Below are positions 21,604 to 60,980 of a DNA stretch of 64,000 nt, piece after piece. Under the pieces are notes generated by a model. It was given only the letters and a program-made list of their open reading frames with translations, was not told the DNA's origin and searched no databases. Both the position numbers and the translations under genes were made by a program. Numbering within the stretch: position 1 is the stretch's first letter; the number at the start of each line of letters is the position of its first letter. Source of the DNA: Liolophura sinensis (taxonomy: Eukaryota > Mollusca > Polyplacophora > Chitonida > Chitonidae); assembly GCF_032854445.1 (NCBI RefSeq), contig NC_088302.1, positions 46,040,521 to 46,104,520 of the forward strand. The letters are read 5' to 3'.

Positions 21604-24600
21604 ATGGCGGGTAACCGCCCCACAGAGTTGACAGGTGCTGCGGAATGGAGTGAAACGTTGTATCAGTTGAAACAAGCTTTATCTTTAGGAATCACTGAAA
21701 GAAGAATATCTGACGAATTCTTTGTTTTCGATCTGCTTAAGGTAAGATTATGGGGCTGAAAAAGTTTGACAGCGTTACTCGATCTTGCGCACATTCCCTG
21801 AATTTAAGACTTTAACTGATGACTGGTGAGTAGTGTCACTCACATTTTCGTACGGCGTCATTGAATGCATGGATGTCTTTTCTTTCTCGATGGTGAAAAT
21901 ACGACTGCTGTGCAGACCACCACCGTGTTCTTGGATAACGGCAGAGTGTTGTAGCAGCGTAGCTTGCATCTGTCATTGCGCTAAAATTACATGATGAACT
22001 TCAACCCCATGTATGGGACTCCCGATATACATGACACAATCTTAACATCTCTCTTAATGGCCATAATCGTATACAGAAACCCAAGCCGTACTACTAACCC
22101 AACATGAGGAGGGTTCCGAGTCCGGAAGTAGTGATCCATCTAAGTATACAGCTTTACATTGTAATTTATTGCGAAATTACTGAAGGAAACAAACCATAAG
22201 AATGCAGTAAACGGCAAAAGCACCTGCTGTATTATGACCATGTAAAAATAATTAAGGCAGTTACTGGTTTATTGTACTAAAATATAAATTCTGTATATGA
22301 ACTGCAGATATTTGTATTATTATGTCACCAGGGTGTGTGTGAAGATGGCGTACAGGAAGTGACCAGAGTCCAGCTGCTTACATTCCTGGAGGAGCATGGG
22401 CAACTTCTTATTCAGCAAGACAAGTAGCCACTCAGTTTATCACAAATTCATTACATTTATTGCAGAAACTTTCTTTTTTGTGAAAAGAAATTCTTCCCTT
22501 TATATAATTTCAACTCTGAAGGCTCGTAAAGACAATATGGATGTGTGCAAGACTGTGTTAGATGTGATTTTTGTTCGGTAAATTCTAAGAACTATGAATG
22601 TAATACTCTAATGCCCATTTTTGTTCGAGATAAATCTGTCTGTATAATCCATTTGGATTCTCATCTGAAAGCTTTAACATTTCTTATTTTGATATTGATA
22701 AATCTGTATTTTATTTTTTGCAGTGTTGAGCAAGTTCTGGCCTCCTTACTTGACATATTTCAACAGGGACAGAAAACAGGAACGAGTGGGCCATTTCTGT
22801 GTCAAGTGTTGACCACACTGACCACTATACTAGTTGAGTTTGACCAGCTGGTGAGGAGGGTTACTCAATACATTATTTCTGTAATCTGTTAATTAAAAAA
22901 ACACATGTTTTCATATTATGGCCAAGTGGGTGAGATATACAAATATTGTTGCGACATAAAGGCATTTAATGCACAGGCATGTTTAGTTTTGGAGATTTCT
23001 TTCTTGAGATATCTAGCTCCATACCAGGAGCCTGCTCCTCTGTTTTTGAATCCAGCTGTAGGCCCTTGTCAGGTGATTTGTGTGGTGCCTGGCAAAGTAC
23101 AGTGGTTTCCTCCAAGTTCTCTCAGATTTCCTCCACACATCAAACTGATGTAAAGTGATGTAAAGTAAAGCTGGTTGTACTAAGACACAAAATTGACATG
23201 TTTAGCAATGAAATTAAGAAATCAAGCACTGTTTCCACAAGTTGGGAGAGATGCTAGGCTGGTGCTAAGTATGGTCACTAAGTTTAAATTTTTTCTTAGT
23301 ATTTTGATTGGCATGTTTGTGGCAGTTTCTTTGATAACAAAATAAGTTTGATGTTGAAAGGTGAAATGTATCCTCATCAGTATTTACATCAGTTTTTAGT
23401 GTATTATATAACTAAAATATTGTTATGAATATGACTCTTATGTGAAAACATGCTACACGTTAAATAATTGCAGGAGTTGTTAATGTTTTGTTAAATGTTC
23501 AATTTGAACCTTGATAAACCTCTGCTTACAGGGTAAGGCTGTTGATATCTGTCAGCGTATATTGGAAACACTGTTAACAATCGTGTCCCAGGTGAATGAC
23601 ACAGCTCAACTTCTCCTCCGCTCTCATGCCTGTTCTTGTCTTCTAGAACTGGAGATTAGCTATCCTGTAAGTATCCTGAAAAAATAAGTTATCATCATCT
23701 AAGAATTGAAACTGTATTCATGCAAAGGTATTGCATTGAGCATTTTTTAAATGTGTGCATTGTTAAGTGCTATCAGCCATAGATGAGTGATGATATTTGT
23801 TATGACTACTTGTATGTCACAGACACTGTTGAGGAACAAACTAGAGTGCCTGTACAGTGCTGTGAAGGCAGAGAGGAGCTGGCTATATGAAGACTATGTA
23901 TGCCTGTTGACCTGCGTTCTACAGCATGCCCTGGCTGCCCTGGTTACATCAGGTGACAAGTAAGTGTACTATTATGTGACCAAGGGTCCTTGTTACCACA
24001 GGTGACTGGTGAGTGGTTATGTGCCCTGGCAGTCCTGATTACATAGGTGACTTGTCAGTGGTTATGTGCCCTGGCAGCCGTGCTTACCACAGGTGACTGG
24101 TGAATGGTTATGTGCCCTGGCCGCCCTGGTTACCACAGGTGACTGGTGAGTGGTTATGTGCCCTGGCAGCCCTGGTTACCACAGGTGACTGGTGAGTGGT
24201 TATGTGCCCTGGCAGCCCTGGTTACCACAGGTGACTGGTGAATGGTTATGTGCCCTGGCAGTCCTGGGTACCACAGGTGACTGGTGAATGGTTATGTGCC
24301 CTGGCAGCCACAGGTGACTGGTGAATGGTTATGTGCCCTGGCAGCCCTGGTTACCACAGGTGACTGGTGAATGGTTATGTGCCCCGGCAGCCCTGATTAC
24401 CACAGATGACTGGTGAATGGTTACGTGCCCTGGCAGCCCTGGTTACATAGGTGACTTGTGAGTGGTTATGTGCCCTGGCCACCCTGGTTACCACAGGTGA
24501 CTGGTGAGTGGTTATGTGCCCTGGCAGCCGTGCTTACCACAGGTAACTGGTGAGTGGTTATGTGCCCTGGCAGCAAAGGTTACCACAGGTGACTGGTGAG

Positions 24601-27600
24601 TGGTTATGTGCCCTGGCAGCCTAGGTTACCACAGGTGACTGGTGAGTGGTTATGTGCCTTGGCAGCCCTGGTTACCACAGGTGACTGATAAGTAGTTATG
24701 TGCCCTGGCAGCCCTGGTTACCACAGGTGACTGGTGAGTGGTTATGTGTCCTGGCAGTCCAGATTACCACAGGTGACTGGTGAGTGGTTATGTGCCCTGC
24801 CAGCCCTGGTTACCACAGGTTACTGGTAAGTGGTTGTGTGCCCTGGCAGCCCAGGTTACCACAGGTGACTGGTGAGTGGTTATGTGCCCTGGCAGCCCTG
24901 GTTATCACAGGTGACTGGTGATTGGTTATGTGCCCTGGCAGCCCTGGTTACCACAGGTGACTGGTGAGTAGTTATGTGCCCTGGCAGCCTCAGGTAACAG
25001 TTAAGCTGTAATGTGCCCTGACAGACCTAATTACTTCAGGGAACAGGTGAGCTTTAATGTGCCCTGACAGACCTAATTAACTCAGGGAAAAGTGTGCTGC
25101 AATGTGCCCTGACAGATCTAATTACTTCAGGGAACAGGTGAACTGTAGTGTATGGTGACACACCTGGTTACCTCAGGGAACAGGTGAGCTGTAGTGTATG
25201 CTGCACCACCTGGTTACCTTAGGGAACAGGTTAGCTATAATGTACCCTGGCAGACCTAATTACTTCAGGGAACAGGTGAGCTGTAGTGTATGCTGACACA
25301 CCTGGTTACCATGGGGAACAGGTTAGCTCTAATGTTCCCTGGCAGACCTAATTACCTCAGGGAACAGGTCAGCTGTAATCTGCCCTGGCAGACCTAATTA
25401 CTTCAGGGAACAGGTAAACTGTAGTGTATGCAGACACACCTGGTTACCTCAGGGAACAGGTGAGCTGTATGTGCACTGGCAGACCTAATTACCTCAGGGA
25501 ACAGGAGAGCTGTAATGTGCCCTGACAGACCTAATTACTTCAGGGAACAGGTGAACAGTAGTGTATGCTGACACACCTGCTTACCTTAGGGGACAGGTGA
25601 GCTGTAATGTGCCCTGACAGACCTAATTACTTCAGGGAACAGGTAAACTGTAGTGTATGCAGACACACCTGGTTACCTCAAGGAACAGGTGAGCTGTATG
25701 TGCACTGGCAGACCTAATTACCTCAGGGAACAGGAGAGCTGTAATGTGCCCTGACAGACCTAATTACTTCAGGGAACAGGTGAACAGTAGTGTATGCTGA
25801 CACACCTGCTTACCTTAGGGGACAGGTGAGCTGTAATGTGCCCTGACAGACCTAATTACTTCAGGGAACAGGTGAGCTGTAGTGTATTCTGACACGTCTG
25901 GTCACCTCAAGGAACAGGTGAGCTGTAATGTACCCTGGCAGGCCTGGTTACCTCATGGAATAGGCGAGCTGTAATGTACCCTGGCAGCCCTTGCTGCATG
26001 ACGGAAGAGGTGAGCTGTGATGTGCCTTGCAGCTCTGGTTACATCAGAGAACAGGTGAGCTGTAATGTGCCCTGATGCTAAGTTTTTTTTTATATTTTTG
26101 TAGTGTGACAGATAACAAGCTAACAGATTTGGTGTGTAACAGAAAAGAGGAAATTAAGGTAAGTTGAACCAATGAAAGCTTTAATATTCTGTCTTGACCA
26201 ATAATGTGTATTATGGATTGGTAATGTCATTTGTGTATGGTATTATCTGACTGCCATACATATATAACAAGATATTCAATCAGTCATTTGCGTCTAATGT
26301 TTTCCAGGACTGCCCAGACTTACAGACTCCCTTTTACACTGTGGTAAGTACTACATGTAAATTGTTTTTAAAGTTAAATCATGTTATAATGTATTGAGAT
26401 TTATATAGTGTACAGTTCTGTAGTGTATTGGAGTCTTTTTGTTGATAAATAATTTATATTGATTTATCGATAAATAGATTTATTTATTTATTTCATAGGA
26501 GTTTTACACCAATGTCGAGAATATTTCACTTACAAAATGCGAGCCAGCATTGTGGTTGGTGGAAACCAAGCAAAAGCGGAGGGAAAACCCAAGGTCATCC
26601 GTAGGTTGCTGGCAGGTCTTCCTACTTACGACCAGAGAGGAGCTGAACTTGTACTCACAGCACCTGCATTAGTGAGAGGCTTGTGTGTCATTATGCTGGG
26701 CTACCATGCTACCCACTAGGCCACACAGGCCTCCAGCAGAATTCAGATTTTCCAGCCATTGTAAAAGATTCAGCTAGTCATAAATACTTATTTTTTACTT
26801 CTTTTTTAACAGACAGAAGGTATAAATACTTTTTGTTTTCTTTTAGACTCATTCTGATGACCTCCCGACCTTTAATCCCAGCGTTGAGGCTAAAGAGGTG
26901 CTGCAGATTATCTCCCACATCATGGAACACTCTGTCATGTTCACGCCTGCTGGACTCGTCACCGTCGTCACTCAGCTCATAAAGATTGTCACACAGATTC
27001 CAGCCTTGTCACCTATTGTGAGTGTTTTGTCTTGCCTTTCATTTATATAAGATATATAGTCCTTCTCTTTATACTTTACATCACTGAACAGTTCATCTAC
27101 ATTTGGATCATATCTAATATTTTAATATCAGCAATCTTTGGGCTAGGTCAAGCAGAATCCAGTGTCCACATGTAACTGTGGGCAGGCAGGTGTCTGCTGC
27201 ATGGCACTCCAGTGGGATGGTATGGTAAAATGTATTGGTCTATCGATCAACCTGGTACAAGATATCGTCCTTATTCTATTTCTTTGAATGGTTCCCACTT
27301 GATGAGATTTTGTTTTGTCAAATCAAAGTACTGGAATGACATTTAAAAACTTGGATATAACGTGAATGATATTTTCTCTGTTTGTTAACCTTTGTTGTCG
27401 TTGTAAGATGAGCACCACAAGACTTACCAGAAGTCAATCTGTCTCGTCAGTGTAGCAAATGTGAAGTCCATGTACATGTACTTCTTGATGACTTTGTCAG
27501 GTGTTTAAGCCAGTTCTACTGCAGTATCTTCCCACCATGGACCTTTCACTGTTACAACTAGTTCTTACTCTGAAGGTTAGTGATTTTCACTGTAAGGAGT

Positions 27601-30600
27601 GGCTTCTAAGCTGAAGGTTAGATGTTGTCACTGTTAAAGCCAGTGCTTATACAATGTGTCTCAAGTTGCTTGATTTTCTCTCTCATGTTGTACATTTTTT
27701 TTACACCAACAAGGATAGGAAGAAAGGTTGTCACAAACAAAATAAGTTAAAATTTTAAAATAAATATGATTAAAAAATAAGAAAATATTAATAAAAAAAA
27801 AAACATATATATAAAAAAAGAATTACAATTACATGTATTTTGTTTGAAGACAGTAATAGTTAGTGTTGTTATCAGTAAAGTTACACATTGATTTGTCTGT
27901 TCAAGACTGTTGGCATTATCATGTATAATGTTGTGAAATATCTATATTTGCAGAGAGTATTTAACGGAGTGCTGTTATCTGAGCTAGAAGAGAAGGCCTT
28001 ACTCCAGCACTTCATGTTTGCACTTAACCATCCAGGTTATGCAGCTGCCCATAGACTGCTAATCTACCAGTGGCTATTTCACTACGACTCTAAAACAGGG
28101 GTAATATAGAAAAGACCGTACATATCATATTCCTTCAGGTCATACCTAACATTTTGATACAAGCAATCTTGAGGCTAGGCAAAGAGTGGTCCAGTATCGC
28201 TGTATAACCATGTAACTGTGAATGAGCAGTGGATCACCACATCAGTATGATGTCTTCTGTATGACATTCCAGTGAGGCAGCACTGTGAAATGATTTTGCC
28301 CTAGGGACCAACCTGGTAAAAGGAGACATAATCATGATAAGACCAGCATAATCGTCAAAGCAACGTTAAACCTCAATCATTCAGTCAATCCGAAATAGTT
28401 TAAGAGTTTAATATCCTCTCTCTTGAGGCAAATGCATTTAATGCTTTGTAATAACTGCATAATTAGTTTTGGATTTCCCTATGTAATGTCACCATGATGT
28501 GCATGTACACACAGAGATTGCTAATATGGCATAGAACCATAACCATACTTTATCTTCTTGTGTCCAGGTTTCTGAATCTGACCATTTACCTGTGCGCCTG
28601 TCTGATCAGAGCTATGATCAGTTGTTCCCTTCAGTCTTTGATGGAGTGGACACTCAGGTGGTCAAACTACGGTCACTCAGTCTGTGTCTGAAGCCAGGTG
28701 CTGAATCAGGTAAGGTAGCTTAACAGCTGCTTTGATGTAAATAAGACTAAACTAGACATAACAGAATCAGCAGTGGTGAATAATATGCTAAATGAAAAAG
28801 ACTTAAAAATAATACACGGACATGAAACAGTTAAAAATATTGCCCTGACATGAATAAAATTAATGGTGGAAAAGAGTAAAAGCGAAAAAGTGCATGAAAA
28901 CACATAAAACCACATAAAAGAGCCTGCTTGCATATGATAACATTTGAAATGAAAATCTTGATTGTTGAAAATGATGAAAATCAAAAAACAAAATTGCTTT
29001 TTTTTCTCTGCCTTGGAGCATGAGGTGCTGAGAAAGTAAATGTGTAAATTTCAAACAAAGTGACACCTCTTATAATTGACTATATGTTGAAATGTACTCA
29101 TTTGGTGAGCCCTGGTGGTGTGCCCTTTTCCCAGACATGGCCTCAGCTGTCTTAATGAGCAGCCTGGTGAACTTACACAAAACTGTGCAGCACAATGTCA
29201 GCGGGAGGGCCACAGTCGCTCTCTTCAGGGTGCTCTTCACCTTCTACAGGCAACACCTGGAGAGCTGTCTACCTCAGGACATCAAACAGTGAGTTACCTG
29301 CACAGCCAAGTGACTCTGGATTGAGTGATTGATTGGTGTTTGATCATAATGATGAGAATTACACTAAACTCTTGTTTTAAAACAGCTTTTTGCATTGTCT
29401 TTGGCAGATCGTATGTTCAAATCTTCACCATGCTATGTACAGGTGACTGTTTTCTTGGCTATATATTATGGTTAGTGTCATAACAGTTTTGGCATATTTG
29501 ATGTCATAAATTATTTATTTTTTTGTACTCAAATCACAGTTGGGTTAGATGCTGATAAGGCTGTCGTTGGTTCAGTAGTTTAAGAGGCATGTATAAGAGT
29601 AACATCACAAAGTTTGTATGTGAAAAACAACTTCTGATTAGTTTCTTGCAAGGTTTATGTGTACATTCTAACATGGTTATAACGCATTTAAAGAGTCATA
29701 TAGAAGTTCACATCATTGTTTCAGGTTTATTATTGGGCTGGTGTCTAACTCCATCCAGCTAGTCCCATATGCCATTGACTTCCTAAACTCCCTGACACAA
29801 CTGCCACAATCCAGGTATGCTCTAAGTAGTGGTTGATTCAAATTGGTGAGTCACAAATGCATAAAGTGGGTTAGCATGTTTCTGGTAGAAAGTGTGAAAG
29901 GCCTTGGGGGAAGTTGAACTTTGTGAGAACCTGAAGCAATAGATTTAAAACAGTAACGACATACTGAGAAAGTTTTTGGGGTGAACATTGAAATTCTACA
30001 TTTTGTACAAGTACAAGTTGTTAAAACAAACGCTGGTATTTTTTTAAGTATATAAAACTTCACCAATATAGAAGTACATGTATAAGTTACTGAAGAGAAA
30101 CACTTATAATTTTTCTTTGAGGCCTTAATTACAAATGTGAATCTTTTTGACATGTCAGGTATTATAATTTAATATGACACTACAGTGTAAATGGTAGAAA
30201 AAGACTTCTTTTTCTCCCCCAACTCCCTGCAACCTCACTCACTCACCTGCCCACCCATCAGTGGTGTACACTTGGAGATACTGAAGGCCTTACACAGACA
30301 AGTGGTACAGTCTCCAGCACAGGATGTCACTTCACAGTTAGACTATGTGCTGCAGGTCCTGCAGAAAGCTGCCACAGAGAAGCAAATCAACCCCAAGGTA
30401 TGTGGATCTACCTGTACATGAATATCATGAGGGAAATCTTTAGGTTCTGGTACATGAAAGCCTGCTCAATGATTCAGGGTTAATTTAGTGTGGTTTATTA
30501 AATCATTCTCAAACAGGGAAAGTGTGACCAACTAAAACACAAGATAACAGATTATCTCTGGTGAAATTTGCGAGTAAATGTGGGGGTCAATACATACATA

Positions 30601-33600
30601 TGATATAATAAAAGATAACAAGTGTACATTAAAAGTAAGAATACTGTATGTCACCTATACTAGTAGTTTGGTACATAAAATGTTCTTTCAGAATCACATC
30701 AAGCCCTTACAAAGATACTATTGGTGGCAACACTTTAAATTTTTTCTGATAAGAAATTTATCAAGCTTCAAACTCAGCTCTTAAGTGGCCCCTGTAAGGT
30801 TGATGAATCAGTCAAAATCAACTATTAAGTGGCTCCTGTAAGGGGACGAATCAGTCAAAATCAACTCCTAAGTGGCCCCTGTAAGGTTGATGAATCAGTC
30901 AAAATCAACTCTTAAGTGGCCGCAGTAAGGTGGACGAATCAGTCAAAATCAACTCTTAAGTGGCTGCAGTAAGGTGGATGAATCAGTCAAAATCAACTCT
31001 TAAGTGGCTGCTGTAAGGTGGACGAATCAGTCAAAATCAACTCTTAAGTGGCTGCTGTAAGGTGGACGAATCAGTCAAATCAACTATTAAGTGGCTCCTG
31101 TAAGGGGAGGAATCAGTCAAAATCAACTCCTAAGTGGCTCCTGTAAGGTGGACGAATCAGTCAAAATCAAGCAAACTGTGCCACTTATTAATTGTTTAAC
31201 TGTAGGTGTAATACAGTATGTGTTTAGTTCATCTAATAGCGAAATATTTAAACCAAGATTTGTTTTTAACTGGTTGTGAAATAAGAAAACAGTGTTGATT
31301 TCAGATTGAAATGTTGTAGTATGAAATTGTAACGCATCTCAGCCAGTGCTTCAGTCTTTATTCTTCCCTTGTTGCTGTAGATGACTTTGAACTTCCTGCA
31401 GCGTGTGTTAGAGTGGGCACCACAGTTGCTCCAGGGAAACTGGGTGCATGGGAATGCTGTGCTGGCCGTGGGCAGGAATATACTGCAGCATCACTCCACT
31501 GACCTCATCTACAATGGTTAGTTGGCGTGCTATGGTGGCTTTTTGGTGTGCTAGGAATTACTGGATCCAAAATCACCTCTGTAAATACAGACCATACGAT
31601 AACTATAACTGGTAAAGGCATATGCTGTGGTCTGATGAGGCATTAATGTAAAATTCCATTTATCAATACAACCCATAAATGTAAGATACATATCATTGAT
31701 AGAAGCATATATTATGAATTAATGGGGCAGCACTGTTAAACCACCTCTATCAATACAGCCCATAACATACATGTAACTATAAATAAAAGAGGCGTATTCT
31801 ATGACTTGATGGGGCCTCAGTGTAAAATCCCACGTTCATGCGGCTAATACCTTATAATCCTGCAATTGTACTACATGATAACCAGACCCCTTTTTAAACC
31901 CATGGGTTCTAGCTTAGCTTTGCAGTGTCACATGCCTTATACACCCTATACATATACAGTGGCATCGACTGGAAGCAGTACGGCCACTTTTCATTAAAAA
32001 AAAATTGTAAAAAATAAATAAATAAAATACATCAAAAGTAATGTCGAAACAAATTTAATGACGACCAACAAAATGAAGGCCAATGCTCGCACTTGAGCAA
32101 TATAAACTGTTAAGCACATAAAACTACTTAAGAAAACTAGGATTTCCTCGCACCTCCAGCCATCTAGCATCTGAAAGCTTCAGGGACACAGGTGGCCTCT
32201 GTTCCCTCATCTTTTGTTCTGGGATAGTCGACTGATGCCGATGCCACTTTCAAATTGCTTCTGAGGTGCTTGATCTACCAATGTTCTTCTGAGAAAAAAT
32301 TAAATTCATTTAAAGTTTGTTTACATTGCTTAATTACTGTATCATTTCAGAGTTGGGTCGGCTGTTCCATTCCATGATGACAACATATGACGATGTAGAT
32401 ATAAAGGACAGGGCGAGGTTTTACTATGCCTTGTTGACTGGGGCTTCAGATGAGAAGGTGAGCTGGTTTTGTTATCTCTCCAGGTAGATTTGTCATATGT
32501 ACACCTGCAGACTGTAGTAACTGTTGATGATTCATCAACCCTGCACATCAATCAGGAGTGTGTAAAATCTGATTGGCAGGTACCTTATGCTTGTATCTTA
32601 GTGTATAGATGATTTGTGATCCAACTGCAGAGAAATCAGAATCAAATTTGAGACAGAAATCAAGTTTGGCAGGGGATGATTTTGAGAAATCATTTAACCT
32701 GTGAGGTGTTGTTGCCTGCAAATTAATCTTGTTTATATATTTACGTGAACACACTGCTTAATTTGTCAAATGTCTAAGATATGTATGTATATGTATAAAA
32801 CAGGGATTGTTATAGGACACATTTTGGGGTTACAGCTGGTAAGCATGTGAGAAAGGTATATTCTTGCTATTCTTAAAGTGAGCAGCTTGGTCGCCGTTGA
32901 TGAGGGAAACATTTAGTTCTATTTCTTTCAGATAGGACTGGTACTCACAAATTCAACAGCAAAGAACGGCACCTCCAACAGTAGTCTACAGAGTATAGTG
33001 GCAGGTAAAATAGTGGTTCATTTGTAAGTAAATTAATTGATCGACTGATCAGATATGGTCTGATTTATTATATGCTGTGTGTAAAGTTGTTAGTTGTGTA
33101 GTTAGTTGTTAGGATGTACTTTACAACTTATAGACTCTAACTTCGTCCTTGCATGTATATATCAAGTACGCTCCTGTGCCTGAAATTTTTTTTACACATT
33201 CACAGCTGTTATTATACGGGTAAATACTGGTACTAATTCATATACATGTATTGTATCTCCTATTGTTGACATATTTTTCACAATCACTTAGATTATATTT
33301 AGATGCACATTAAATATAAATATATTTTCAGAATGTGTGTCTTGTTACATACAACCTAGCTGAATAGCTCTAAAACTTAATCATGTCACTGATTGTGTAT
33401 TGCAAGGCATTGTTGGTAAAAGACGGGTTCACATCTTGTACATGTAGCTATGGTATCTGACATCATTTCTCTGAGTGTCGGCTGGAGAAAGATTTTATGT
33501 ACAGTGACACCTTCATGACCTTTGTAGAGACTAGTACTACTAATGACAGCACATATCAGTTAACAGGTGGCATGCTAACCGCCAAATTTAAGCAGCTCCA

Positions 33601-36600
33601 GAAAAACATACATCATACTGTAGAAACCAGATCTTATGATCATAAGTCCACCAAGTTCTGCCTGATTTGTTCCCATCACAGCGCTGGGCGCCGTTTTGTC
33701 AGTGAAATACAGCATAAAACACCAATGAAATAAATAAATCAAATGGAAATGGCGCATTAACATCTTCTGTTACTTCTCTTTTTTTTGTCGGAATGCACCA
33801 GAGTAAGAATGTAGTGACCTGGTTGTGGGTTAAGGCTATTTATTCATTGTTTGTATAGTCTTGTAAAAGAATGACTGATATATCTATTTCCCTTATCCAA
33901 AGACAATGACAGTCATCGCTTAAGGAAATATTGAGCTACTGTAATATGGGTAAATGTTCCTTTACAAATAACAGTCTGGGTAATAAGCTATGTGTATATA
34001 TTTACAGGACCGGGGGGCTTCCTCAATCAGACAACACTTACAGAACTGGAGAAATCACCTGTAACATGGACCAGGTGTGTGTTACTGAAACAACTCCTTC
34101 ATTTACTCCTTATAAAGTTATGTGTTCGAATGAAAGAGCTTTTTTTTTTAAAAACATGCAATGTCTGCCTTTTTAATTAGCTTAATTCTTCACCTTTTTT
34201 AACCACCACTGTAACCCATATTTTTAAACATTCTGAGAGAACTAAGGGGTGTGGAAAATTATTTGCACAGTTTTATGAAGCTTGTTTCCTTTTTGGCATC
34301 ATTTTCATAATAATTGCATGCATACATTCCACTGGAAAAAGTGGCCGGTGGTTGAAAAGGTGGAAGATTTACAGTAAACTGTCATTGATGTTAGAGAGTT
34401 TTTTTCATGAGTAGGCTAGTTACAACAGATTTACCAAACTACTGATTTCTGGGTAACATTTCGAAACGTGTATATGTATATGATAATACTCATACATGTT
34501 TGTCTCACTGTAGACTGACCCAGCGTTACAAATGGACACCACAGCCGCCGGCCATCAGTCAGGATTCTGTCACACAACGTGCAGGTTTGTGTCGTAAACA
34601 TGTCGGGTGTTTAAAAGACTTAGATATTGATAGGTTAAAATTGTAGTGTGTGGAAATTGGTATCTCTTTTTGTCTGTCTAAGAACAGAAAGGGGCTTGGA
34701 AACATAAATCAGAATAATATTCTTTGCTGTTTATGAAAACTAAGGATTTTCTTTGCCAGTGGTTCTGATTATATGATTGTCTTGTCATTTCCATGTGACA
34801 CTGGATCTTCTTAATTCCTAATCCTGTATCTCAACCTTACTATTCACAGATCCTGTCAGGTTATACCTAGAACAGCTTGACATGCATTCACCCGTCCTGG
34901 AGTTCAACTTTCAGCTAAGAATGGTAAGCCTAATGTATAGTAATTATTAATTTTCTTTATTCAATAACTGTAATAAAAATATAAAGCCAAACAGAATCCA
35001 CAAAACTTAATAATGCCATTTTATTACAGAAATCCACTCAGTACATGTTGTGCATTGTTAACTTCCTGTTAGGATGTTAAAATCTCTTAATTGATTGACT
35101 TTTTAAATGTTCAATATAAACATGAACAAAATGGAAACTTGAACTTGACTTTATGAATATCCTTGATGGTCGTGGGTTTCCTCTGGGCTCTGCCCGGTTT
35201 CCTCTTGCCCTTATGCTGGTTGCCATCGTATAAGCGAACTATATGTATTCTTGAGTACCGCATGAAACACCAATCAATCAGATAAATAAATAAATATAAA
35301 ACAGAAATCTATAGAATCATGAAATGAACATTTTCAGCCTTATGTAAGGAAGTTTTTACAGTAGCCTGAAAATTATTTTTTTGTCTTGCACAGGTGGACA
35401 TTTGTGATTTTGACCAACTTTTAGCTGTTACCATTGAAATAGAGACGAATTCCAACTGTGAACCTGTTAAAGGTACATTGTATGTCTTATGAAGATACTA
35501 TGAAATAATAGTAAACATAGTAAACATGACTTAATGAGTTATTTATTTATTTATTTGATTGTTCTTTGCCATACACAAGAATTTTGCTATGATTTAATGA
35601 TGTTCTGGTAATCGTATGCTAAACTGTGTAAGGCGTATGTTTATTAAAGTTTCTGTAGTCTGTAAAGTTGGTAATTGTTTCAGCTAATTCTTAAGTTTCC
35701 ATTCTGCAGATCTTATTTTGATAACAGTACATGTATATGTGATTATTCCTTGTATATTATTTGTAGATGTCCATCTCTCCTGTTTGCTACCCTCTGGTGA
35801 GTTTAGTGACTTTTGTGAGGGAAAGCACTGTATTGACACTTCATACCACCAACTGATACAATGAAAGAATGTAGATTATCAAATTTTAGCAGTAGAGTAC
35901 ATATGTGCTAAGATATAAATATTTACATTTTAGATACATTGTATTTTATTTTGGTCATGAATGTTAGCCTGAGTATGTTTTCCAGTGCATGGGTTATGAG
36001 TCAGTTTCAACTAAAATCAAAGTTTCATTTCATTCATTTTAAAGAAATTTTATTACTCTCAAAACATTTCAGCTGGCACCCCAGTTATAGCACTTTTAAA
36101 ATTTAAACCCATATATATAATTAATGTATGAAAGTCATGGCATTACAGTATGTACTTATTAAGATAAATATATTCATATTTTTTGGCATCATACAAAGAC
36201 AGTATCATACTAGAAAAGAAATGTGTTGATTCATAACCAGAAAAATTTGAGGTTTTCAGGTGATATGGCCACCAGTAGCTAAAGACTATCACCAGCATTT
36301 ATAAAAGCAGCTATTATACATGCCTAAATAAAAATTGTAGCATAATTTGAAATAACTGTCAAACACTAGTGGTGAAATATGATATGGTGCATAGTAATTA
36401 TATTCATCATGCAAATAATCCTCCTGTGTTCAGTTTGCTATCAAAACTAAACTACATAATTTGTGTTAGTACATGTATCTCTCACCTTTTTTGATTCGAG
36501 AAAGGTTAAGAAGGAAAAAGGAAGTATACATGTGTATATGAATTGAGACCATGTGGGGTGATCTACAAGGTTCATGACATTTAGAGTATGGCACATTATG

Positions 36601-39600
36601 AATAGACTTTAATGCAGATCATCTGGTTTATTTCAGAAGAGAAGAGTTTCACTGTTGATTTGATTCCAAAACTGCCATTACCAATGTCTTATCCAGCAAG
36701 GTTATCATCTTTTCATTGTTCAGAATCCATGCAATTACTCAAAATCGGTTGTCATGCCTGAAAGTATTACCAATGTGTCTCATGTCCTTATTATGAAATC
36801 ATGAGAAAAATAAAGTAGGCTGCTAAATACTCAAAAATTCTCTGTAAACCGTTTTGTTAATTCTTTTAATTCATTGAATTTAATAATTTAAAACCAAGGT
36901 TATATTTATAAGAGAGATCAGTAAAAGTATGTTCGATAATTCCATGAAATGTATTCATTTTTTGTAGGTTTATTGTTTCATTGAACTAAACAGTTATTTT
37001 ATAGGTTCAATATTTAAGTTAATGACACAGTATTAAATTTAAAAGTTAAACCCGTTTTGGCATATTTGTTATACATTGTAATAATAATGATGCCCCTTCC
37101 CCCCAAGTGTTCTCCGCCTGATAACTGTTTTGACAGTCTACACATCCGCCTCACTAACTCTGGCTGTTCTAGCTCATTAGCTATCAGACTAACTGATTGA
37201 GCCTCATCTTTCAATTCATTTTTACACCTGAAAACGAAGGCTGAAAAACTTATTTTGTATATTCCTACAATTTAGAACATGCCATAAAGTAATTGAACAG
37301 CGCGAGAAGTATTTTATATCAGAAATCCTTTAAAAAGCTGTAATTTCGAGATTGTATTTGAACCCATCCTTACTGTAATCTTTGCTATGTGAAATTCAAG
37401 TTGTTAGAATGAAGGTTGATATTTTCTGCATTATAGAGTGATGTTTACCTCCCCTGACAGTCGCACCTACTCCTGTCAACTTGAGCCTGTGGACGTTAGA
37501 TTCGAGGACTATTTTGTTCCTGTACCGATCACACTTTGTACTGACACTGACCCAGAACTGTTCTTCAACAGACTGTGGACAGATACTTTACTGGACAAAG
37601 TAACGAGTGACAAGTAAGTTGTCCTACTGATTGCTGCTGTTAACATTGTTAATCTTTCACACGGCCAAATGTGTTAAAGTCACCAAGGTCAGGGGAGGTA
37701 ACTCTTTAATCCAAAATCTTCATGGCCTGTATTGTTTCCACTCTAATTCAACTCCAGGCATCGACCACTGTAGTTGTGATTATAGGTATATTTCATTGCA
37801 CAGATGCGTGTCTATGTTAGTTCTTGTGTGAATGGACAAAGAATTAATTGCATGTTTAAGTTTAGAACACATTGTTCTTGCTCTAAATGGAAATAATTTT
37901 AGATATTTGCCGATGGTCCCTTAAAACATTGCATCGGAAGTGCAGTATTCCAAAATATATGACCAGTTCTCGTCATGGGTGTATACATTGATAAAACAAA
38001 AATTGTTAGAAGTAGAAGTAAATGGCATGGGCTGCGTCCATTGAAATATTTTTTGCCTGGGTCTACTGTTGTATTTTTTAAACGTGCTTCAGTGTTGACA
38101 GTGTCATGGGAAGCTCAGTAGTTGGAGACGTATGGCATTATGTGTTAAGTTTTGTCCACCTGTTAAGACGTTTGTCACAGTAGGATTAATTTCTTACCTG
38201 TCAGCCCTTCGGGGCTTGACAAGACATGATGACATTGGGATATGATTCGTATGAATTAAATTCCTCAGAGACCTCAGGATTGCAACCCTTTGGATCTCTT
38301 GTCTGACTCTCTACTGTGACTCGAAAAGGCATGTGGTTGGAAGGTACAAGATCTGGGAGAATGTTCATTGAGATGTGTGTCTTGAAAGCGTGTGTATTAT
38401 TTGTCTTGCATGAAACATCTTGTAGACGGACCTTTTTCTTTTCGCACTGTTTGCGGGTCGATAGTTTGTCCGGCTTTTTAAATGGTTTTTTTTAATTGTT
38501 GACTTTGACATAACCTTTAGTTGGATGGCTCAAACCGGTTGTGGATATTTATTGCAGAAGCACAACTTTCATAATGGTTGTTGTATTGTCTGTTTTTTAT
38601 GACAGGTAACATCAGTTAGGCCCTGTTTGCGTTGTTCATGTGTTGTTTATATTCTCTTCCAGTACATCTGGTGAAAGGGGAGTTCAGTCTGTTTACTCAC
38701 CCAAGTTTGGAATGGAGAAAATGGAGAAAATTTTATGCGGAAAACTGAAGCCGTTCGTCATAAATTCTAATTCAGGTAAGTACATATTTGATAAATATAT
38801 TTGTGTCTCTGTTAGTAGGAAGAATATAATGATTTATTTAATATTCATTTTGGGAATTGTTGTCTGCTTGATTTATTTATTTGATTGGTATTTTACGTCG
38901 TCCTGAAGAATATTTCACATATAAGACGGCGGACAGCATTATCCTGGGAGGAAACCAGACGGAGCCTTTAGATACCCATATTGAACCGCAATTTCCTGGC
39001 ACACCTTCCCACGTATGACTGGAGAGGAAGACAGCATGAGCTGGACTTGAACTCACAGCGACAGAGGCCCCGTTTTCTGTTTGGTATAGATATGTAATTT
39101 GGTTTATTTGTGTTAAATGTCCTGACAACACACCATTTTGAGTGATTCAAGACCAGTGACGTCTAATAAATAATACAGTTAACATCACTGCAATTTTTGT
39201 TGCCTAATTCTGCCTAATCCATGGTGCTAGGGGCGTGTAAATTGCTGCTATTGAAGCATTTACATGGACAATTGGAATAAAACCCAGAGGTAAACTGACA
39301 GGGCCGTACTTCACCGGTTACGTGTGATCATTTGCCAGTTATTACACTGTCGTCGCTGCTCTAGGTTTACTCTCTATCCTGTAGTCTCTTATATTTCTAA
39401 TTTTAATGTGTTTCAAAACCTGAAACTAAACATTACTTTTATTACTGTATTTTTAGATACCCATGTACATCGTGTGGCCATCCTCTCAAAACCTGAAACT
39501 AAACATTACTTTTATTACTGTATTTTTAGATACCCATGTACATCGTGTGGCCATCCTCTCAAAACCTGAAACTAAACATTACTTTTATTACTGTATTTTT

Positions 39601-39781
39601 AGATACCCATGTACATCGTGTGGCCATCCTCTTACCTGTCCACCATCACCTGCTAATGAAGATTGAACCTGTGGACGGGAGAGTGATCATACACACTGCC
39701 ACGGATCTCTGGGAAATTTTGGGGGTTTTACAGACGTTTTTAGACAATTTACACGACGAGGGTACTGGAGATCATTCTTGA
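21604..39781 (+). CDS. AP5B1: AP-5 complex subunit beta-1
   Basis: Twenty-six exons join in continuous phase from the ATG at 21604 to TGA at 39779-39781, giving 934 residues; human AP5B1 is about 880. Family matches run in the same order along the whole protein: LLELEISYP (exon 4), the SPIVFKPVLLQYL region (8-9), LLQHFMFALNHP (10), TLNFLQRVLEWAP (15), DRARFYYALLTG (16), VHLSCLLPSG (22), the YSCQLEPVDVRFEDYF region (24) and the C-terminal VAILLP (26). The N-terminal two thirds is helical-repeat-like and the C-terminal third beta-rich, as in large adaptin subunits. In vertebrates AP-5 (beta5, zeta, mu5, sigma5) works with SPG11 and SPG15 at late endosomes and lysosomes. The donor of exon 2 (CAA/gtagcc) is weak. 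Introns 5 and 25 hold tandem copies of splice junctions. Exon coordinates are in the two exon-map entries. Confidence 0.93.
22985..23165 (+). repeat. Decayed SINE-like repeat in AP5B1 intron 3
   Basis: The text gtttttgaatccagct recalls a B box. It is followed by ggtttcctccaagttctctc and a second tttcctcc, a pattern common in old tRNA-derived SINEs. It is too decayed to assign to the main SINE family here. Confidence 0.4.
23960..26090 (+). repeat. 46-bp splice-donor minisatellite filling AP5B1 intron 5
   Basis: About 45 copies of a 46-bp unit occupy nearly the whole intron between exons 5 and 6. The left block (to about 24990) has units like gccctggcagccctggttac, then cacaggtgactggtgagtgg and ttatgt. 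These align with the end of exon 5 and its donor: gccctggctgccctggttac, then atcaggtgacaagtaagtg, at 23928-23966. The right block has units like gtgccctgacagacctaatt, then acttcagggaacaggtgagc and tgtaat, also 46 bp. It includes a 229-bp higher-order repeat of five units (25421-25649 against 25650-25878). Most units carry a donor-like GGTGAGT or GGTGAGC. The array therefore appears to have grown from the exon-intron boundary itself. Confidence 0.93.
26476..26735 (-). mobile_element. Near full-length SINE in AP5B1 intron 7
   Basis: On plus it starts with tttatttatttatttcatag, continues with gccagcattgtggttggtgg and the segment caggtcttcctacttacgac, and ends in the tRNA-like head (ctgaacttgtactcacag, then tgctacccactaggccacac). 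The insertion ends about 110 bp before the exon 8 acceptor. Confidence 0.85.
27115..27275 (+). repeat. Dispersed repeat, second family, copy 1
   Basis: It lies in AP5B1 intron 8. It shares ordered text with 28130-28395: catatctaa-atttt-atat-agcaatctt-gggctagg, tccagt, atgtaactgtg, a cactccagtg-gg segment, and gatcaacctggta. It is probably a second, older SINE-like family. Confidence 0.6.
28130..28395 (+). repeat. Dispersed repeat, second family, copy 2
   Basis: It lies in AP5B1 intron 10 and is longer than the copy at 27115. Its 3' end reads aaagcaacgttaaacctcaa then tcattcagtcaat, the kind of tail seen in several invertebrate SINEs. It has no coding potential. Confidence 0.6.
30777..31171 (+). 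repeat. 44-bp tandem array in AP5B1 intron 14, nine copies
   Basis: Nine units at 44-bp spacing (one or two bases lost in some) read ctcttaagtggcccctgtaa, then ggttgatgaatcagtcaaaa and tcaa. Each includes a gtaagg string that looks donor-like. Unlike the arrays at 23960 and 43291, I could not match the unit to a neighbouring exon edge. Confidence 0.9.
33640..33735 (+). repeat. Degenerate SINE 3' part in AP5B1 intron 17
   Basis: The text cagtgaaatacagcataaaa then caccaatgaaataaataaat matches the SINE 3' end with its central part decayed. Confidence 0.5.
35160..35303 (+). mobile_element. SINE copy in AP5B1 intron 20
   Basis: It reads gatggtcgtgggtttcctct, then ggctctgcccggtttcctct and caccaatcaatcagataaat with an aaataaataaa tail. 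The tRNA-like head is missing. It is the sense orientation relative to AP5B1. Confidence 0.8.
35538..35605 (-). repeat. Short decayed SINE 3' fragment
   Basis: The text tttatttatttatttgattg then caagaattttgctatg keeps only the tail-proximal part of the SINE, in AP5B1 intron 21. Confidence 0.45.
38873..39062 (-). mobile_element. SINE copy in AP5B1 intron 25
   Basis: It starts on plus with tttatttatttgattggtat, includes gacagcattatcctgggagg, and reaches the head edge (agcatgagctggacttgaac then tcacagcgaca). It lies about 540 bp upstream of the exon 26 acceptor used and close to the triplicated acceptor. Confidence 0.82.
39199..39400 (+). mobile_element. Dispersed ~210-bp element in AP5B1 intron 25
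   Basis: It is the reverse complement of the copies at 9650, 54082 and 55862. It begins near gcctaattctgcctaatcca, passes through gcatttacatgg, ggaataaaaccc and cactgtcgtcgctgctctag, and ends near gtagtctcttatat. It ends just before the first repeated acceptor unit. Confidence 0.65.
39411..39634 (+). repeat. Triplicated 73-bp unit carrying the last AP5B1 acceptor
   Basis: Three almost perfect copies each hold 41 bases of intron end (caaaacctgaaactaaacat to tgtatttttag) plus the first 32 bases of exon 26 (atacccatgtacatcgtgtg onward). The acceptor AG dinucleotides end at 39456, 39529 and 39602. Only the third leads to the conserved AP5B1 C-terminus. The first ends at a stop at 39569 and the second at 39666, both after frameshifted tails. 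Confidence 0.93.
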
Positions 39782-40972: not shown

Positions 40973-41835
40973 CAAAGTCTGTAAGAAAGAACATGCTCTT
41001 TGTAGATTTGTCATGCAAGGTGGATTGACTTAACACACACATTCATCTATTTGTCAGTTAAGTTGTAGAAAACGATAATGTTAACACGAAGCATTTGATG
41101 ACATTCAGGAGTCCTATTTGTCACTTCAAGGAAACCGCAAACACTGCCTACAGGGTCTCCGTATATCTTTATGATTAGAAGATCAGTTTCGCGAAAACCT
41201 AAGGAAACGACTTTCTGTGTGTGGTATTATACTTTCCATTTGAATGGCTGGCCGATTGGAACATGCCCTTAACACAAGAAACAAGGATGTGTGTATGTGT
41301 ATACAACACATTAGATTGTTATTTTCGTAAAAACGTAGACATTAGTTTTTAAATAATCAAAACATTGATATTATGATACAAAACCAGACCTGTACATGTG
41401 TACTGGCCAGTAATCCTACCACAATGCTACAGATGGTTCCCAGGAGTCGGAAATAGGTTATGTGCATGCCTATTGAATTGTGAATTGATGGGTCTTAGTG
41501 TCGTCATGTACCGATCATAATTTCCTGCCACGGGAAATTGAAAACAACTATACCATAATGTATCAAGCCTTCTGTTAAAAGGCAGATAATTTCTGTGCGA
41601 GGATGGAAAATCGCATAATAATGAAAGGAATGTTTTAATGTGAGGAACTTCCCGCCTAAAATGCAAGGTATTACGCTGCAGTACTTGTGAAATGTGTATT
41701 ACGTCTTTGCCTTATTATAGCTCAGCTATACATATACTTTCACGTATTATAGAAACAAACAAGAAAGTATCAAAACCAAAGGCGGGTTATGTTCGCATTG
41801 TACGTGTTACATGTATCTTAATATCCACAGGAGGA
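40973..41835. other. Intergenic / 3' flank of the otopetrin gene
   Basis: Nothing recognisable. It probably contains the otopetrin 3' UTR on the minus strand. Confidence 0.4.
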
Positions 41836-44800
41836 TTAATTTTTCCAGGCCCCTTTCCAGATATTAGACAAACAGACCGTGGAATGGAAACGGAAAAATA
41901 TGGCAAGAGGAATGGAAATGTGTGAGAGAATGTTCCAGGCTAACGCTCCGTAGTAATGCATCTGTACAGGATTAGCCACTGTTCTCTCCGCCTCAAATGT
42001 GTTGATGCACCACATAGCAATGTTAGTGATCAGTAAAAACGTGACATATTCCCGGCCACTCTTTTGTCGACCCTGCTCGGCAGTTCTCGTACATCTCCGG
42101 AGACCGTCCAGCACGAACATGGTTTGTATGGTGGACTGGGTGATACCCAGAAGACAGGCAGCGATGCTGAGGCGACTTGCAAACTGCTCCTTGTCAAATA
42201 TAGCCGCAACAATACTGAGCATCTGGAACATGTAATCTCCTGTCAGGGAGATAAGAATCAATACTTCTTCAAAATCTGTGTCGCGCGTAACGTTGAAACG
42301 AAGATAGCGCATACGTGTTGCCGCTATTACCACAGCTATGGTGGACAATGTGAACAGAGTTATTTCTGACAAGTACTCCACCATAATTGCTGACCGATTG
42401 TACGTAGGAGTTTTAACGAGGACGAAAAACACGACCATAGTGATGATAGTGCCGACGAGGATGAGGATTCCCAGGAAGAGGCCTCTGCTGGACTTTGAGC
42501 AGTCCACACGGAGGCGATGAACCACAGCTCTATCGTCTTTGTCGTCCTCAGATTTGATGGCCATCACACGTTTACCGATGTTCTTCCACAACGTGTACAC
42601 GATTCCTGAAACAGATATTGAGAGAACTTTTGAAAAAGAAAATTCCATGTCTCGTGCACTGTTTTGAACAACATGAATCTTATCTGAACATTCCGCTATA
42701 TACCATTCATATTTTTTGAAATACAATGGTTAGTCACTTGATAATGATCCCGGCATGAGGATCGAAAGCTTGTGAAACCTTTTACATTTACGTGGTAGTG
42801 CCTCGACTTCATTATTATTATTATGAATCATGGAAGAGTTGGTCATATCATTTCAGTTTAAACCCATCTATATTGAAAAAATGTGACAGATGATGTGATT
42901 CTTTTAGTGGTACGGACTAGGAACATACAATAACATCGCGGCTCTTCTGGACAACAGTTATTTCTATGTAGCTGCCGAAGGGCAGTCGTTCAATGCGGGC
43001 GCACTGGTTTCCTGCTCCCATAAACTTGACCGCCACCTTATTGTATTACTGGAAATATTTGGACAAACCACGTTCAACACCCAATTATATAAAAAAATAA
43101 TATCGCAACGTGTGAACTGTTCTGTGATTTAAATCTTCTATGGTGCAAATTTTATGGAACATAGACCAGTGGCATTTTTACCCCACTCGGCGTTTCCAAA
43201 CGGTTGCTACAAATCGTAATTCAAGAAAGCAGCTTGACACATATGCATGATATATCTAACTTTTAAATTGTTCGTGTATTTCTACCCACATTATCATGTA
43301 CCTGCATAAATCAAGCTGTATTCTATGGAGCAGGGATGCAGATAGGGGCTGACCCGCACATTATCACGTACCAGCACAAATCAAGCTGTATTTTATGGAG
43401 CAGGGATGCAGGTACGGGCTGACCCACACATTATCACGCAGCTCCACAAATCAAGCTGTATTCTATGGAGCAGGGATACAGGTACGGGCTGACCCACACA
43501 TTATCACGTACCAGCACAAATCAAGATGTATTCTATGGAGCAAGGATACAGGTACGGGCTAACCCACACATTATCACATACCTGCACAAATCAAGCTGTA
43601 TTCTATGGAGCAGGGATACAGGTACGGGCTGACCCACACATTATCACATACCTGCACAAATCAAGCTGTATTCTATGGAGCAGGGATACAGGTACGGGCT
43701 AACTGTTTCCAGGACACTCAGCATTAGCTGGCTGGTCTTACAGTCAAAGTGAGTCCCCACGACCGGAAGAACTGGGGAAGGAAAACTTCTCTCTGAAAGA
43801 CAAAATCTTTATGAAACAGGATGTAAATGATTTGAGGAAAGTTACTGATAAAAAATATTTTTGCTTGTGGCAAGAATATATATTGACTTGTAGATCTGTT
43901 TCTCTTAACTGGAAATCGTTTCAGTTAGACAAGAAAAACTGTTTTGTGTTAGAGACTGCGACCCTAGTACAATTTGAGTAGAGTTTTCAGAAAACCGAGA
44001 CAGCGAGTCAGGTGAAGTTCATAAATTACAATCTGTTAAGACCCCAAGACACGCTGGGTCTGATTCATATGACTACATATAACTGTGAGCCTATATGTGT
44101 TTGAATAAGCACGCTTTACGAGCCCCACACAAAATGTGCTTTGAAGAAAGTGTCGTTTTACACACGTAATTTGAATGTTTCAACTGACTTTGGGAGGGGA
44201 GACATTATCTATTTCAAAAATGGACAGTATGAAAAAACATCCCCCAAAACAAGAACAACGCTGGCCTGATCGTTGTTAAATACATTACTTTTGAATCTTG
44301 ATCAAAAAATGGTTAGGATAATCGGTCTATAGTTCGGGTCATGGTGGACCATATCAAACTAAAGCGTAGTGTGGGTTAAAATGTTTTGAGGAAAAGGGTA
44401 ATGAGTTGTTAACACATATGCTTGTAAACTGTACCTTAAGATATCCACGATAAGCTTTTGATATCTATGTACCTGTATTTTACAGCATAATCCCAAACAG
44501 GATTGTATATGGCAAGGGGTTCGCATATGAAATAGGAGATCAAACCGTGAAATTTAAACCAAAATCTGAACGAAGTCAAAAGCGAAGGGTCAGACGAACG
44601 TACCCGATAGTTTAAAACTATGCCAAGCAATGAATTATGATAAGGGATTCTCATACCAAATCTGAGACCAATCCTTCATGCCGGAAGGAGGATATCGCAC
44701 AGTAACAAGGATTTGAACAACCGGACAGACGGATGATCCTGAATACAGAAGTAATCCCAAGCAAAGCTCCATTACAAGAAATTCACATACCAACTATGAT

Positions 44801-47800
44801 ATGAATCCAGCAAATCGGAGTGAATGTAAGGTGCGGAAACCAACACAATCAGAAGGACAGATGGAAAAACGGACGGAAGGACAGACGGACGGATAGGCTG
44901 CCCTCTTTGTACAAAGGTATACAGACACGGTTAGGTCGTTAGCTGAGGCCAGCTGAACTTTGCCGATGCGTTCACGTCCACGAAGACGTGACGAAAAACA
45001 AGAGCTGAGGTGTTATATAGCAAAAGTAGAAACTGACCATGGGTCACGTTTTGTGGATTGAGATGACTATGTTTGCGTATGAGCTGAGCTGCAGTTGTGG
45101 TCAAGTGAGCAATAGTTCCATGGATATCCACTGGTCCGTAATCTCGTCCTCGAGCGGAGACGTTAATGCTGTGGCGTCTGTTGACGTCAGCCAGCAACGT
45201 CCGGTTTGGCGTCGGCGTTGTATGCTCCTGAGAATACAGCACGGCGGCCAAATCGTGGTGGGGTGACGAGTCTATGTTTCCCAGTTGATGTAGGGTTTCC
45301 TCTACGATGGTGTTGAACCATACACAGATGTTTGTGGCCACCATGTGCATGAGGCCAAACCGGGCTATGGTCTTGTAACGGTTGATGCACATCTAGAAGA
45401 AGACAAAACGGAAACGCTTTGACAAATTTCCGAAAACAGTGTTCAGTTCAAACAATCAAAGAACTAAGAAAAAACATATATACACTTGGAAATTGGGACG
45501 GAATCAAGCAATGTGAAACATTTGCTATGCTAGTACATAACTTTTTTAAATCAAAATATATATCCCAGTTGACCTTTGGTTCGTATATTCATACGCTTCC
45601 CCTATAGCCCTTTCTATAACAGTTTCTTTAGACAATTACCACGCAAGAAACCAAACAATAAATCAGATACACCAAGCAACATGCAGAAATACTGACAAAA
45701 GAACAGGTCTGAAATCTTTCTCAGCGAGTTACAGAAAAATTAAAAATTTACCTTAGAGTTTAAGAAGACAAAGTAAAGCTGGACAAAGGTAAACATCAGG
45801 TGTACGATCGGGCGGATGGCGAAAACTGCATGTCTACAGGGATCTATTACCTCCACCTCAAAATAGTCTCCAAACTGTAGGCCGCTATGAATCATGGAAC
45901 CGATGCCAAATGCTGAAAACAATAGAGAAGAAAAAATAGAAATTATATCAAAAGAGCGAATTCTACAAGCCCTTGAACATTCTTGGTTTGACAAAGAGTG
46001 AATCCAGGCGTAGAAACCATTCCTATACCAATTTCACTGGACCTTCCTGGTCAATAATGGCAAGACCAATTTCCAAACAAACATTCAACCTTAAATGAGG
46101 AGCATATAAAGTAAGAAATTAGAGCGGATTCAGTATCTACAATCCACGGTCCTAGATTCATAGAAGTACAATGTATTTCTCAAGACAGACACTGTGCTAA
46201 TAAATAAGTTACCTGTAAACCAAAAATGTGTGATGACATGTATGATTGGGTATATACGTCTTATACTGTGTGATTATAAAAACCAAGAAACAAGTGTAAT
46301 GCATTTGAATTTTGTACAGGTTATTCAAGGTTAATTTTCGAACTGACAGTATGCTGAATTACCCACAGCACCTAGTCGGAGGTAAAAGCTTCCGGTGTTA
46401 GCGGTGGGAAAACTCGTGCTACATTATACTCCAAGCTATCACCTTTACTGGTGGAGATTAAACCCAAAATCTTGTACGTTATTCAAAATGCTGGCTTACC
46501 CACAGCACCTAGTCGGAGGTAAAAGCTTCCGGTGTTACTGTTGACTTTGTCTACTGAGACCTTTCGTTTCCGGTGTTTCTTCTTCTGACTTTGACCCGAG
46601 GGGGTCGTCTTCTTGGCGGCCCTAGTCCGTAACAGGTATGTGTACACATAGCCCAGGAAGAGGATGCTGCCACCGTACATGTAGATGTAAAACACCTGAA
46701 ATCAGAGACGTGTACACATAGCTCAAGAAGAGGATGCTGCCAACGTACATGTAGATGTACAACGCCTGAAATCAGAGACGTGTACACACAGCTCAAGAAG
46801 AGGATGCTGCCGCTGTACATGTAGATGTACAACACCTGAAATCAGAGACGTGTACAAATAGCCCAAAAAGAGGATGCTAACAACGTACATGTAGATGTAA
46901 AACACCTGAAATCAGAGACGTGTACACATAACTTAGGAAGAGGACGCTGCCGCCGTACATGTAGATGTGAAACACCTGAAATCAGAGACGTGTACAAATA
47001 GCCCAATAACAGGATGCTGCCGCCGTACATGTAAAGGTAAAACACCTGAAATCAGATACGTGCACAAATATAACCCAGAAAGATGATGCTACCGCCATAC
47101 ATGTAGATATAAAACAAGCGAACAATCGTGTGGAAAGCTACGTCATGACAGGCAAACAAATCAAGGTTAGGCCTATAGTCAGGAAGCGGTCCTGTCGCCG
47201 TGCCTGAAGGTAAAGATGTATAAAACATTGAAGTAGGAGACGCTTACCATCAGTTCATTTATATGCAAATGTGTGGCAGGCAGTGTGTGAATTTTGCACC
47301 TGATTGGGTATTTACAGGGGATCTGAAAAACTTTCTCTTCTCCGCTCTCTTTGTGTTCAGGGTGTAACAGGGTGACGGATTACTAACCATCTGTGGTGCG
47401 TAAGTGTCATGGCATTCAGGCCATCGGCTATATTAAGGAGACACATGGATATTGAAGTACTGTTGAAATGTACGTCATTGTTTATGAATCAGAACAAAAC
47501 CAAGCACCCTCCCCCCTAAAGCACATGAAGTGAGGATACCGATACACTTGAGGCTAATTATAAGAACACAGACTGGAAATGGAACAGTTGTATAGTTCGA
47601 TGTTGAACTCACCTCAAACAGAAGAGGATGCTTCTCTTGTGCGAATAATTCTGCAATAGGTAAGACTGCGCCTAAGATCGTGAGGAACATGGCATACATC
47701 CCACTGAGGATGGTGAAAATGCTCTGCCTGGAACAAGATATAGCGGAAAGCCATGGTTATGGGAAATAACAAAAAAATATTCCATGTTTCGGAGTTAACT

Positions 47801-60802: not shown

Positions 60803-60980
60803 GTAAGGGAATTGAGTCATTGGAAAATGGTTATGGTGCTTGCCTTACAGCTCCCAGGGCACACGAGACATGGGTTCAATCCCATTCCCTGACAGAGAGT
60901 TTTTCAAGAGTTCTCAACGTCTATTATTCACAGAACCTTAGTGACAATAAGCAGTCGGCAGTGCTCACTGGTGTAGCCTT

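Follow-up and report, generated by a model that had tools for sequence, protein, structure and literature searches.

At five exon–intron junctions of two neighbouring genes of the chiton Liolophura sinensis, a marine mollusc, a short segment straddling the junction has been duplicated. The genes encode the AP-5 complex subunit beta-1 (AP5B1) and an otopetrin (OTOP) and lie in the window, that is, the whole stretch of 64 kb analyzed here, which belongs to scaffold_4 of assembly GCA_032854445.1 (the name of the assembled species was changed from L. japonica to L. sinensis; PMC12441733). Four of the duplications form head-to-tail arrays with units of 46–73 bp and one is displaced, and we consider it likely that they are minisatellites of the mirage type, generated by duplication of segments across existing junctions. 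What they bring about is the lengthening of existing introns; the creation of introns is not shown. The five duplications had been pointed out in an earlier note made from the letters of the sequence (hereafter the original prediction), and they proved to be real. The genes and copies concerned are located as follows:

21604–39781, forward strand: AP5B1 gene, 26 coding exons in our own model.
23928–23977, forward strand: functional copy of the 46-bp unit, with the final 32 nt of exon 5, the donor following 23959, and the first intron bases.
23978–26075, forward strand: non-functional copies of the 46-bp donor array, 44 near-complete, two shortened and an end fragment.
39413–39632, forward strand: three 73-bp copies at the exon-26 acceptor of AP5B1, with the intron end and about the first 29 exon nt.
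41836–47727, reverse strand: OTOP gene (proton channel OtopLc-like), six modelled coding exons.
43287–43704, reverse strand: six 70-bp copies at the OTOP coding-exon-5 donor, about 52 exon nt plus 18 intron nt.
46351–46400, reverse strand: second copy of the OTOP coding-exon-2 donor edge, intronic, 137 bp downstream of the functional one and 96% identical over 50 bp.
46488–46537, reverse strand: functional copy of the OTOP coding-exon-2 donor edge, exon end at 46500.
46633–47117, reverse strand: seven copies at the OTOP coding-exon-2 acceptor, 70 bp each except the outermost (72 bp), 14 intron plus 56 exon nt.

Arrays were located without regard to genes by Tandem Repeats Finder and, independently, by self-BLAST, with shifts of at most 4 kb and a cutoff of E ≤ 1e-4. 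The self-BLAST of the window yielded 14 clusters, six outside and eight inside three gene models, and five of these eight contain a junction. Next to AP5B1 and OTOP, one further gene was included in the tests:

59388–61713: dual-specificity phosphatase gene (Pfam DSPc), which we take to be PTPMT1-like.

The AP5B1 model translates into 934 aa, all 934 of which agree with the sequence that NCBI lists as “AP-5 complex subunit beta-1-like” (P0001; 100% identity over 100% of the length), and the OTOP model agrees with the NCBI “proton channel OtopLc-like” protein of L. sinensis (P0003) at 100% identity over 98%. Probable 5′ exons are missing from the OTOP model. Since exon numbering varies with these unannotated exons, the “third” and “sixth” OTOP exons of the original prediction correspond to coding exons 2 and 5 in our numbering.

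The three models have 33 introns and hence 66 junctions, and at each junction the exon edge was aligned to its own intron. Exactly five of them gave z values of 18–38, while the other 61 did not exceed 4.4. A second test used a query of 25 + 20 nt centered on the junction and a null that excludes the query's own intron; here the five junctions reached z 10.6–36.6 and the remaining ones at most 4.3. None of 19,800 null alignments attained a score of 16.5. Among random AP5B1 intron windows outside the arrays, four of 475 had a local copy scoring at least 16.5 (best 18.0), compared to 20.5–45 at the five junctions. The AP5B1 exon-9 donor (27575; z 4.3, score 16.5) was considered as a sixth case but was not counted, because four of the 475 random windows score as high; a degenerate two-copy duplication of this donor with a spacing of ~45 bp is possible at 27575–27640, not above background. 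In the alignment of exon edges to their own introns, seven of the 66 junctions beat the best of 60 nulls, and the two beyond the main five, the AP5B1 exon-9 donor (14.0 vs. 11.5) and the OTOP exon-1 donor (13.0 vs. 12.0), were set aside as marginal. The affected junctions comprise three donors and two acceptors, so that both boundary types are represented, and coding exon 2 of OTOP is hit at both of its ends.

The most extensive array is found at the exon-5 donor of AP5B1. Its unit consists of the last 32 nt of the exon and 14 nt of the intron, with four additional nt in the functional copy, and the predicted number of about 45 copies of 46 bp agrees with our count of one functional and 44 near-complete copies. 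Two subfamilies, A and B, can be distinguished, with the switch at about 24978. Almost the whole of intron 5 is made up by this array, and at 2,144 bp this intron is the longest of the 25 introns in the gene (median 474 bp). The GT at the donor place is kept in 40 of the 44 copies and AGGT in 20. According to a splice-site weight matrix built from the 33 introns of the three models, intron 5 contains 59 donor-like sites that score at least as high as the lower quartile of real donors, which amounts to 27.9 per kb, compared to 2.2 per kb in the remaining AP5B1 introns. Of these sites, 22 score at least 11.2, compared to 9.7 for the real exon-5 donor, whose leave-one-out score is slightly lowered by this procedure; the matrix detected no strong acceptor in the array. 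The GT columns themselves are unremarkable, as 43–48% of the remaining columns match or exceed them in conservation, and thus this array offers nothing clear in favor of decoy donors maintained by selection. Intron-derived positions are slightly better conserved than exon-derived ones in subfamily B (0.894 vs. 0.841), a lean confined to that subfamily (A: 0.952 vs. 0.938).

At the opposite end of the gene, the last acceptor was correctly predicted to be present in three units of 73 bp. All three carry the splice signal and are identical letter for letter, and the functional copy is the third, with the exon start at 39603 that is used by P0001. As the sequenced animal has a heterozygosity of ~1.2% (PMC11068029), the identity of these copies indicates that the array is probably recent, and it is possibly still polymorphic.

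The OTOP arrays likewise agree with the predicted unit lengths and numbers. Among the six copies of the exon-5 donor, the functional one (43635–43704, donor after 43652) included, five have the GT. There are 6 changes in the 17 intron-derived columns vs. 11 in the 53 exon-derived ones, and the intron-derived part is no better kept here. For the exon-2 acceptor six to seven copies had been expected; there are seven, counting the functional copy with exon start 46695, and AG is intact in all but the outermost one (47117). The functional and five extra acceptors obtain weight-matrix scores of 10.0–11.6. The copies form a rough star, in which the functional edge copy is the least diverged (5, 6, 6, 6, 7, and 10 differences to the others, which differ from each other by 5–15), as expected from one constrained and several relaxed copies; two non-functional copies that are 5 differences apart share some history. 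In this array only 1 of 14 intron-derived columns varies, compared to 24 of 56 exon-derived columns (Fisher's p = 0.013; p = 0.008 with the outermost copy omitted), and this near-invariance of the intron-derived positions is unexplained. Coding constraint on the non-functional copies was not apparent from the minimum changes by codon position (10:5:11, by our own estimate not clearly uneven). The outermost copy had also been considered as codon-conserving, which failed on realignment owing to a 2-nt insertion.

The fifth case, the donor of the same OTOP exon, had been listed as two copies at a spacing of 137 bp. A 50-bp copy does lie 137 bp away, but the pair is not tandem: about 50 bp are common to both copies, the intervening 87 bp were not found to be repeated, and the case is a displaced two-copy duplication without a head-to-tail array. 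It also limits the claim that every unit leaves a remainder of 1 on division by 3, which is correct for 46, 73, 70, and 70 bp, while 137 leaves 2. The OTOP edges concerned encode motifs such as SFYLRLGA and PYLYPC, which are invariant in nine mollusc, brachiopod, and annelid proteins chosen among 120 matches listed.

Two open reading frames on the reverse strand, at 52520–53281 and 47904–48218, are probable 5′ otopetrin exons that are absent from P0003, which begins at MYAMFL. The former has FPGLRKDSIxIYK in common with the otopetrin paralog P0004 (24 of 68 positions identical, E = 5e-6 in a single comparison), and the latter gives a weak match (9 of 17, E = 0.022). In a Pfam search (E ≤ 0.01), nine of ten submitted open reading frames of the window had no match.

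At all five junctions the NCBI proteins use the copy at the edge on the exon side, i.e., the 5′-most donor or the 3′-most acceptor, and in the gene models all extra copies are intronic. As anticipated for a wrong choice of copy, the protein was ruined in every case tested. In AP5B1 intron 5, 69 GTRA sites were tried and none gives a full-length protein, the longest product having 210 aa. The two extra exon-26 acceptors fail to do so as well, with products of 912 and 920 aa whose ends are altered. The same holds for the five extra acceptors of OTOP exon 2 (70–132 aa), the single second donor of this exon (108 aa), and the five extra exon-5 donors (324 aa), one of which lacks GT. Splicing in vivo would be expected to ignore the decoy copies.

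How such arrays might arise can be outlined in a few steps. A duplication across a junction would be tolerated, as one complete junction stays on the exon side and the extra copies are spliced out with the intron; it would be harmless because the intact edge junction remains and the additional copies fall within the intron. Once two copies are present, slippage or unequal exchange could multiply them. The intron would then lengthen from its edge inward, with the edge copy held by selection on the protein and the extra copies presumably neutral. AP5B1 intron 5 might represent the end product of this process and the 73-bp array its beginning. If the 73-bp copies are indeed polymorphic, the process could be observed within a population. 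The genes provide a testable case for intron lengthening from the edges and for how the spliceosome, faced with dozens of good junction copies, settles on a single one.

Three observations weigh against this interpretation. The identity of the used copy rests on the NCBI annotation. Furthermore, the near-invariant intron-derived positions of the exon-2 acceptor array are not predicted by plain neutrality. Finally, passive tolerance predicts fewer arrays on junctions than were found. Under random placement of units within the gene models, with positions lying entirely in an exon disallowed, a unit met a junction in 8–18% of the trials. For the seven strong in-gene arrays 0.84 junction hits are thus expected, but five were observed (P = 3.8e-4), which suggests that something may favor junctions. 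Including the weak cluster at 31570–31832 gives five of eight (P = 1.4e-3), and the arrays reported by the tandem finder alone give four of six (P = 2.7e-3). The argument of the original prediction that random placement would seldom produce so many junction hits holds numerically within the window (P ~ 4e-4), but the window had been picked for this very pattern, and the excess is post hoc and suggestive.

A mechanism that targets junctions, for instance through co-transcriptional R-loops, transcription-linked breaks, or junction microhomology, could create duplications preferentially at these sites, beyond what neutral survival would leave. We regard such targeting as a tentative possibility. 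It would account for the excess and for the two affected ends of OTOP exon 2, but there are only seven events from a single selected window, the arrays share neither GC content (0.34–0.52) nor GC skew (−0.36 to +0.14 on the forward strand), and microhomology at the boundaries of the 73-bp unit is at most 1 bp as judged by eye. More broadly, junction-straddling duplication in chitons, and perhaps in other animals with long-lived minisatellites, could be a biased, ongoing, and main route of intron lengthening. Each event would be seeded on a live junction, with the edge copy under selection and the older copies displaced toward the interior, where they form intron rich in decoys. Former exon edges would then make up almost the whole of certain long introns such as AP5B1 intron 5. 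We put this forward as a speculation that may well prove wrong.

Coincidence, with ordinary minisatellites of which five happen to cover junctions, appears unlikely. Local duplications are frequent in this DNA, as the 14 clusters in 64 kb illustrate, and they include two strong in-gene arrays that are intronic and away from junctions, one with a 44-bp unit at 30768–31170 and one with a 31-bp unit at 60980–61202; the choice of the window by a reader who had already spotted the pattern would add to the appearance of an association. Against this stand the low probabilities obtained with random placement within genes (P = 4e-4 to 3e-3) and the scores of the five junctions, all of which exceed the best of the random AP5B1 intron windows. 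An origin of the two off-junction arrays as degenerate exon-edge copies was rejected, since in a comparison with the modelled exons of all three genes their best scores were at shuffle level. The 31-bp minisatellite has seven copies and is situated in the last modelled intron of the phosphatase gene.

It is rather improbable that the copies serve as functional decoys or alternative splice sites, which tune the output of AP5B1 or otopetrin via truncated transcripts in a manner similar to human IFI6 (PMC4526556). The high density of donor-like sites in AP5B1 intron 5 and the well-scoring, nearly invariant acceptor motif of OTOP exon 2 would fit such a role. However, the GT columns of the 46-bp array are not specially kept, a strong acceptor is missing there, and no internal copy tested yields a full-length protein. 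In addition, a protein search clustered at 90% identity gave a single AP5B1 record with one member for L. sinensis. A false expansion of the repeats during assembly is very improbable: HiFi coverage was just 14x and the three 73-bp copies are fully identical, but the mean PacBio HiFi read of 8.3 kb exceeds every array (PMC11068029), and the diverged copies of the other arrays (77–92% matches) are not expected from assembly errors.

Further repeats occur outside the modelled genes. Minisatellites are present at 881–1598 (23 bp, 32 copies) and at 2283–2807 (about 32 bp, degenerate), and a degenerate repeat of 18/54/108 bp lies within open reading frames at 62938–63393. It is close to a fragment at 63549–63815 that presumably derives from a pogo/Tigger-type transposase.

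Several known systems resemble the chiton duplications in part. Minisatellites in introns of earthworm metallothionein (PMC12783039) were not used as a precedent, because they are not stated to span a junction. In potato RdRp a duplication crossing an intron–exon boundary made a new intron (PMC4974935), and intron gain by tandem duplication with splice signals, including the case of ATP2A1, has been reviewed (PMC3443670). Tandem duplication involving splice signals is common to these cases and the chiton genes, but there a new intron resulted, whereas in the chiton pre-existing introns are enlarged and none that is new is evident in the gene models or in the two NCBI proteins. For the same reason the intron-creation model of Rogers, which the original prediction had invoked, is not supported in the form given there: it places a new intron between two exonic AGGT copies, while the duplicated segments here contain part of an existing intron and fewer than half of the 46-bp copies retain AGGT.

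A tandem unit that carries a splice donor was reportedly described for human IFI6 (6-16) by Turri in 1995. This unit is far shorter than the chiton ones. Downstream units in IFI6 act as donors and give rise to isoforms (PMC4526556), whereas the internal chiton copies tested give no full-length protein; the 912- and 920-aa AP5B1 products or truncated transcripts may nevertheless occur. Human segmentally duplicated genes contain internal tandem repeats at exon–intron boundaries that affect splicing (PMC2812944). They share with the chiton the location of minisatellites at these boundaries, but are variable and associated with novel introns in paralogs, whereas the annotated chiton exons are unchanged.

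The original paper on mirages is said to be that of Canestro et al. from 2002. Mirages are minisatellites across exon–intron boundaries of amphioxus genes (Adh3, the globins BflGb6 and BflGb9, TnC, PGBD5, and other loci; PMC3087553, PMC3902484) and are the closest precedent for the chiton arrays (PMC3087553). They consist of several copies with AG or GT kept in many but not all of them, RT-PCR suggested that regular splicing is undisturbed, and length instability as well as haplotype variation have been reported (PMC3087553, PMC3902484); their describers proposed them as a step toward intron gain. Among titles and abstracts on boundary minisatellites no molluscan case was present in the matches listed, which is weak evidence given the open-access coverage. 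The chiton cases differ from those of amphioxus in that they occur in a mollusc instead of a cephalochordate, that all five belong to two adjacent genes, and that one array of ~45 copies nearly fills its intron. They are alike in that the units span the exon–intron boundary, in four head-to-tail arrays and one displaced pair, that both 5′ and 3′ boundaries are affected, and that splice signals are retained in most copies (40/44 in the 46-bp array, 5/6 at OTOP exon 5, 6/7 at the OTOP exon-2 acceptor, and 3/3 in the 73-bp array). The presence of several such mirages in a mollusc suggests that the underlying process reaches beyond the cephalochordates.

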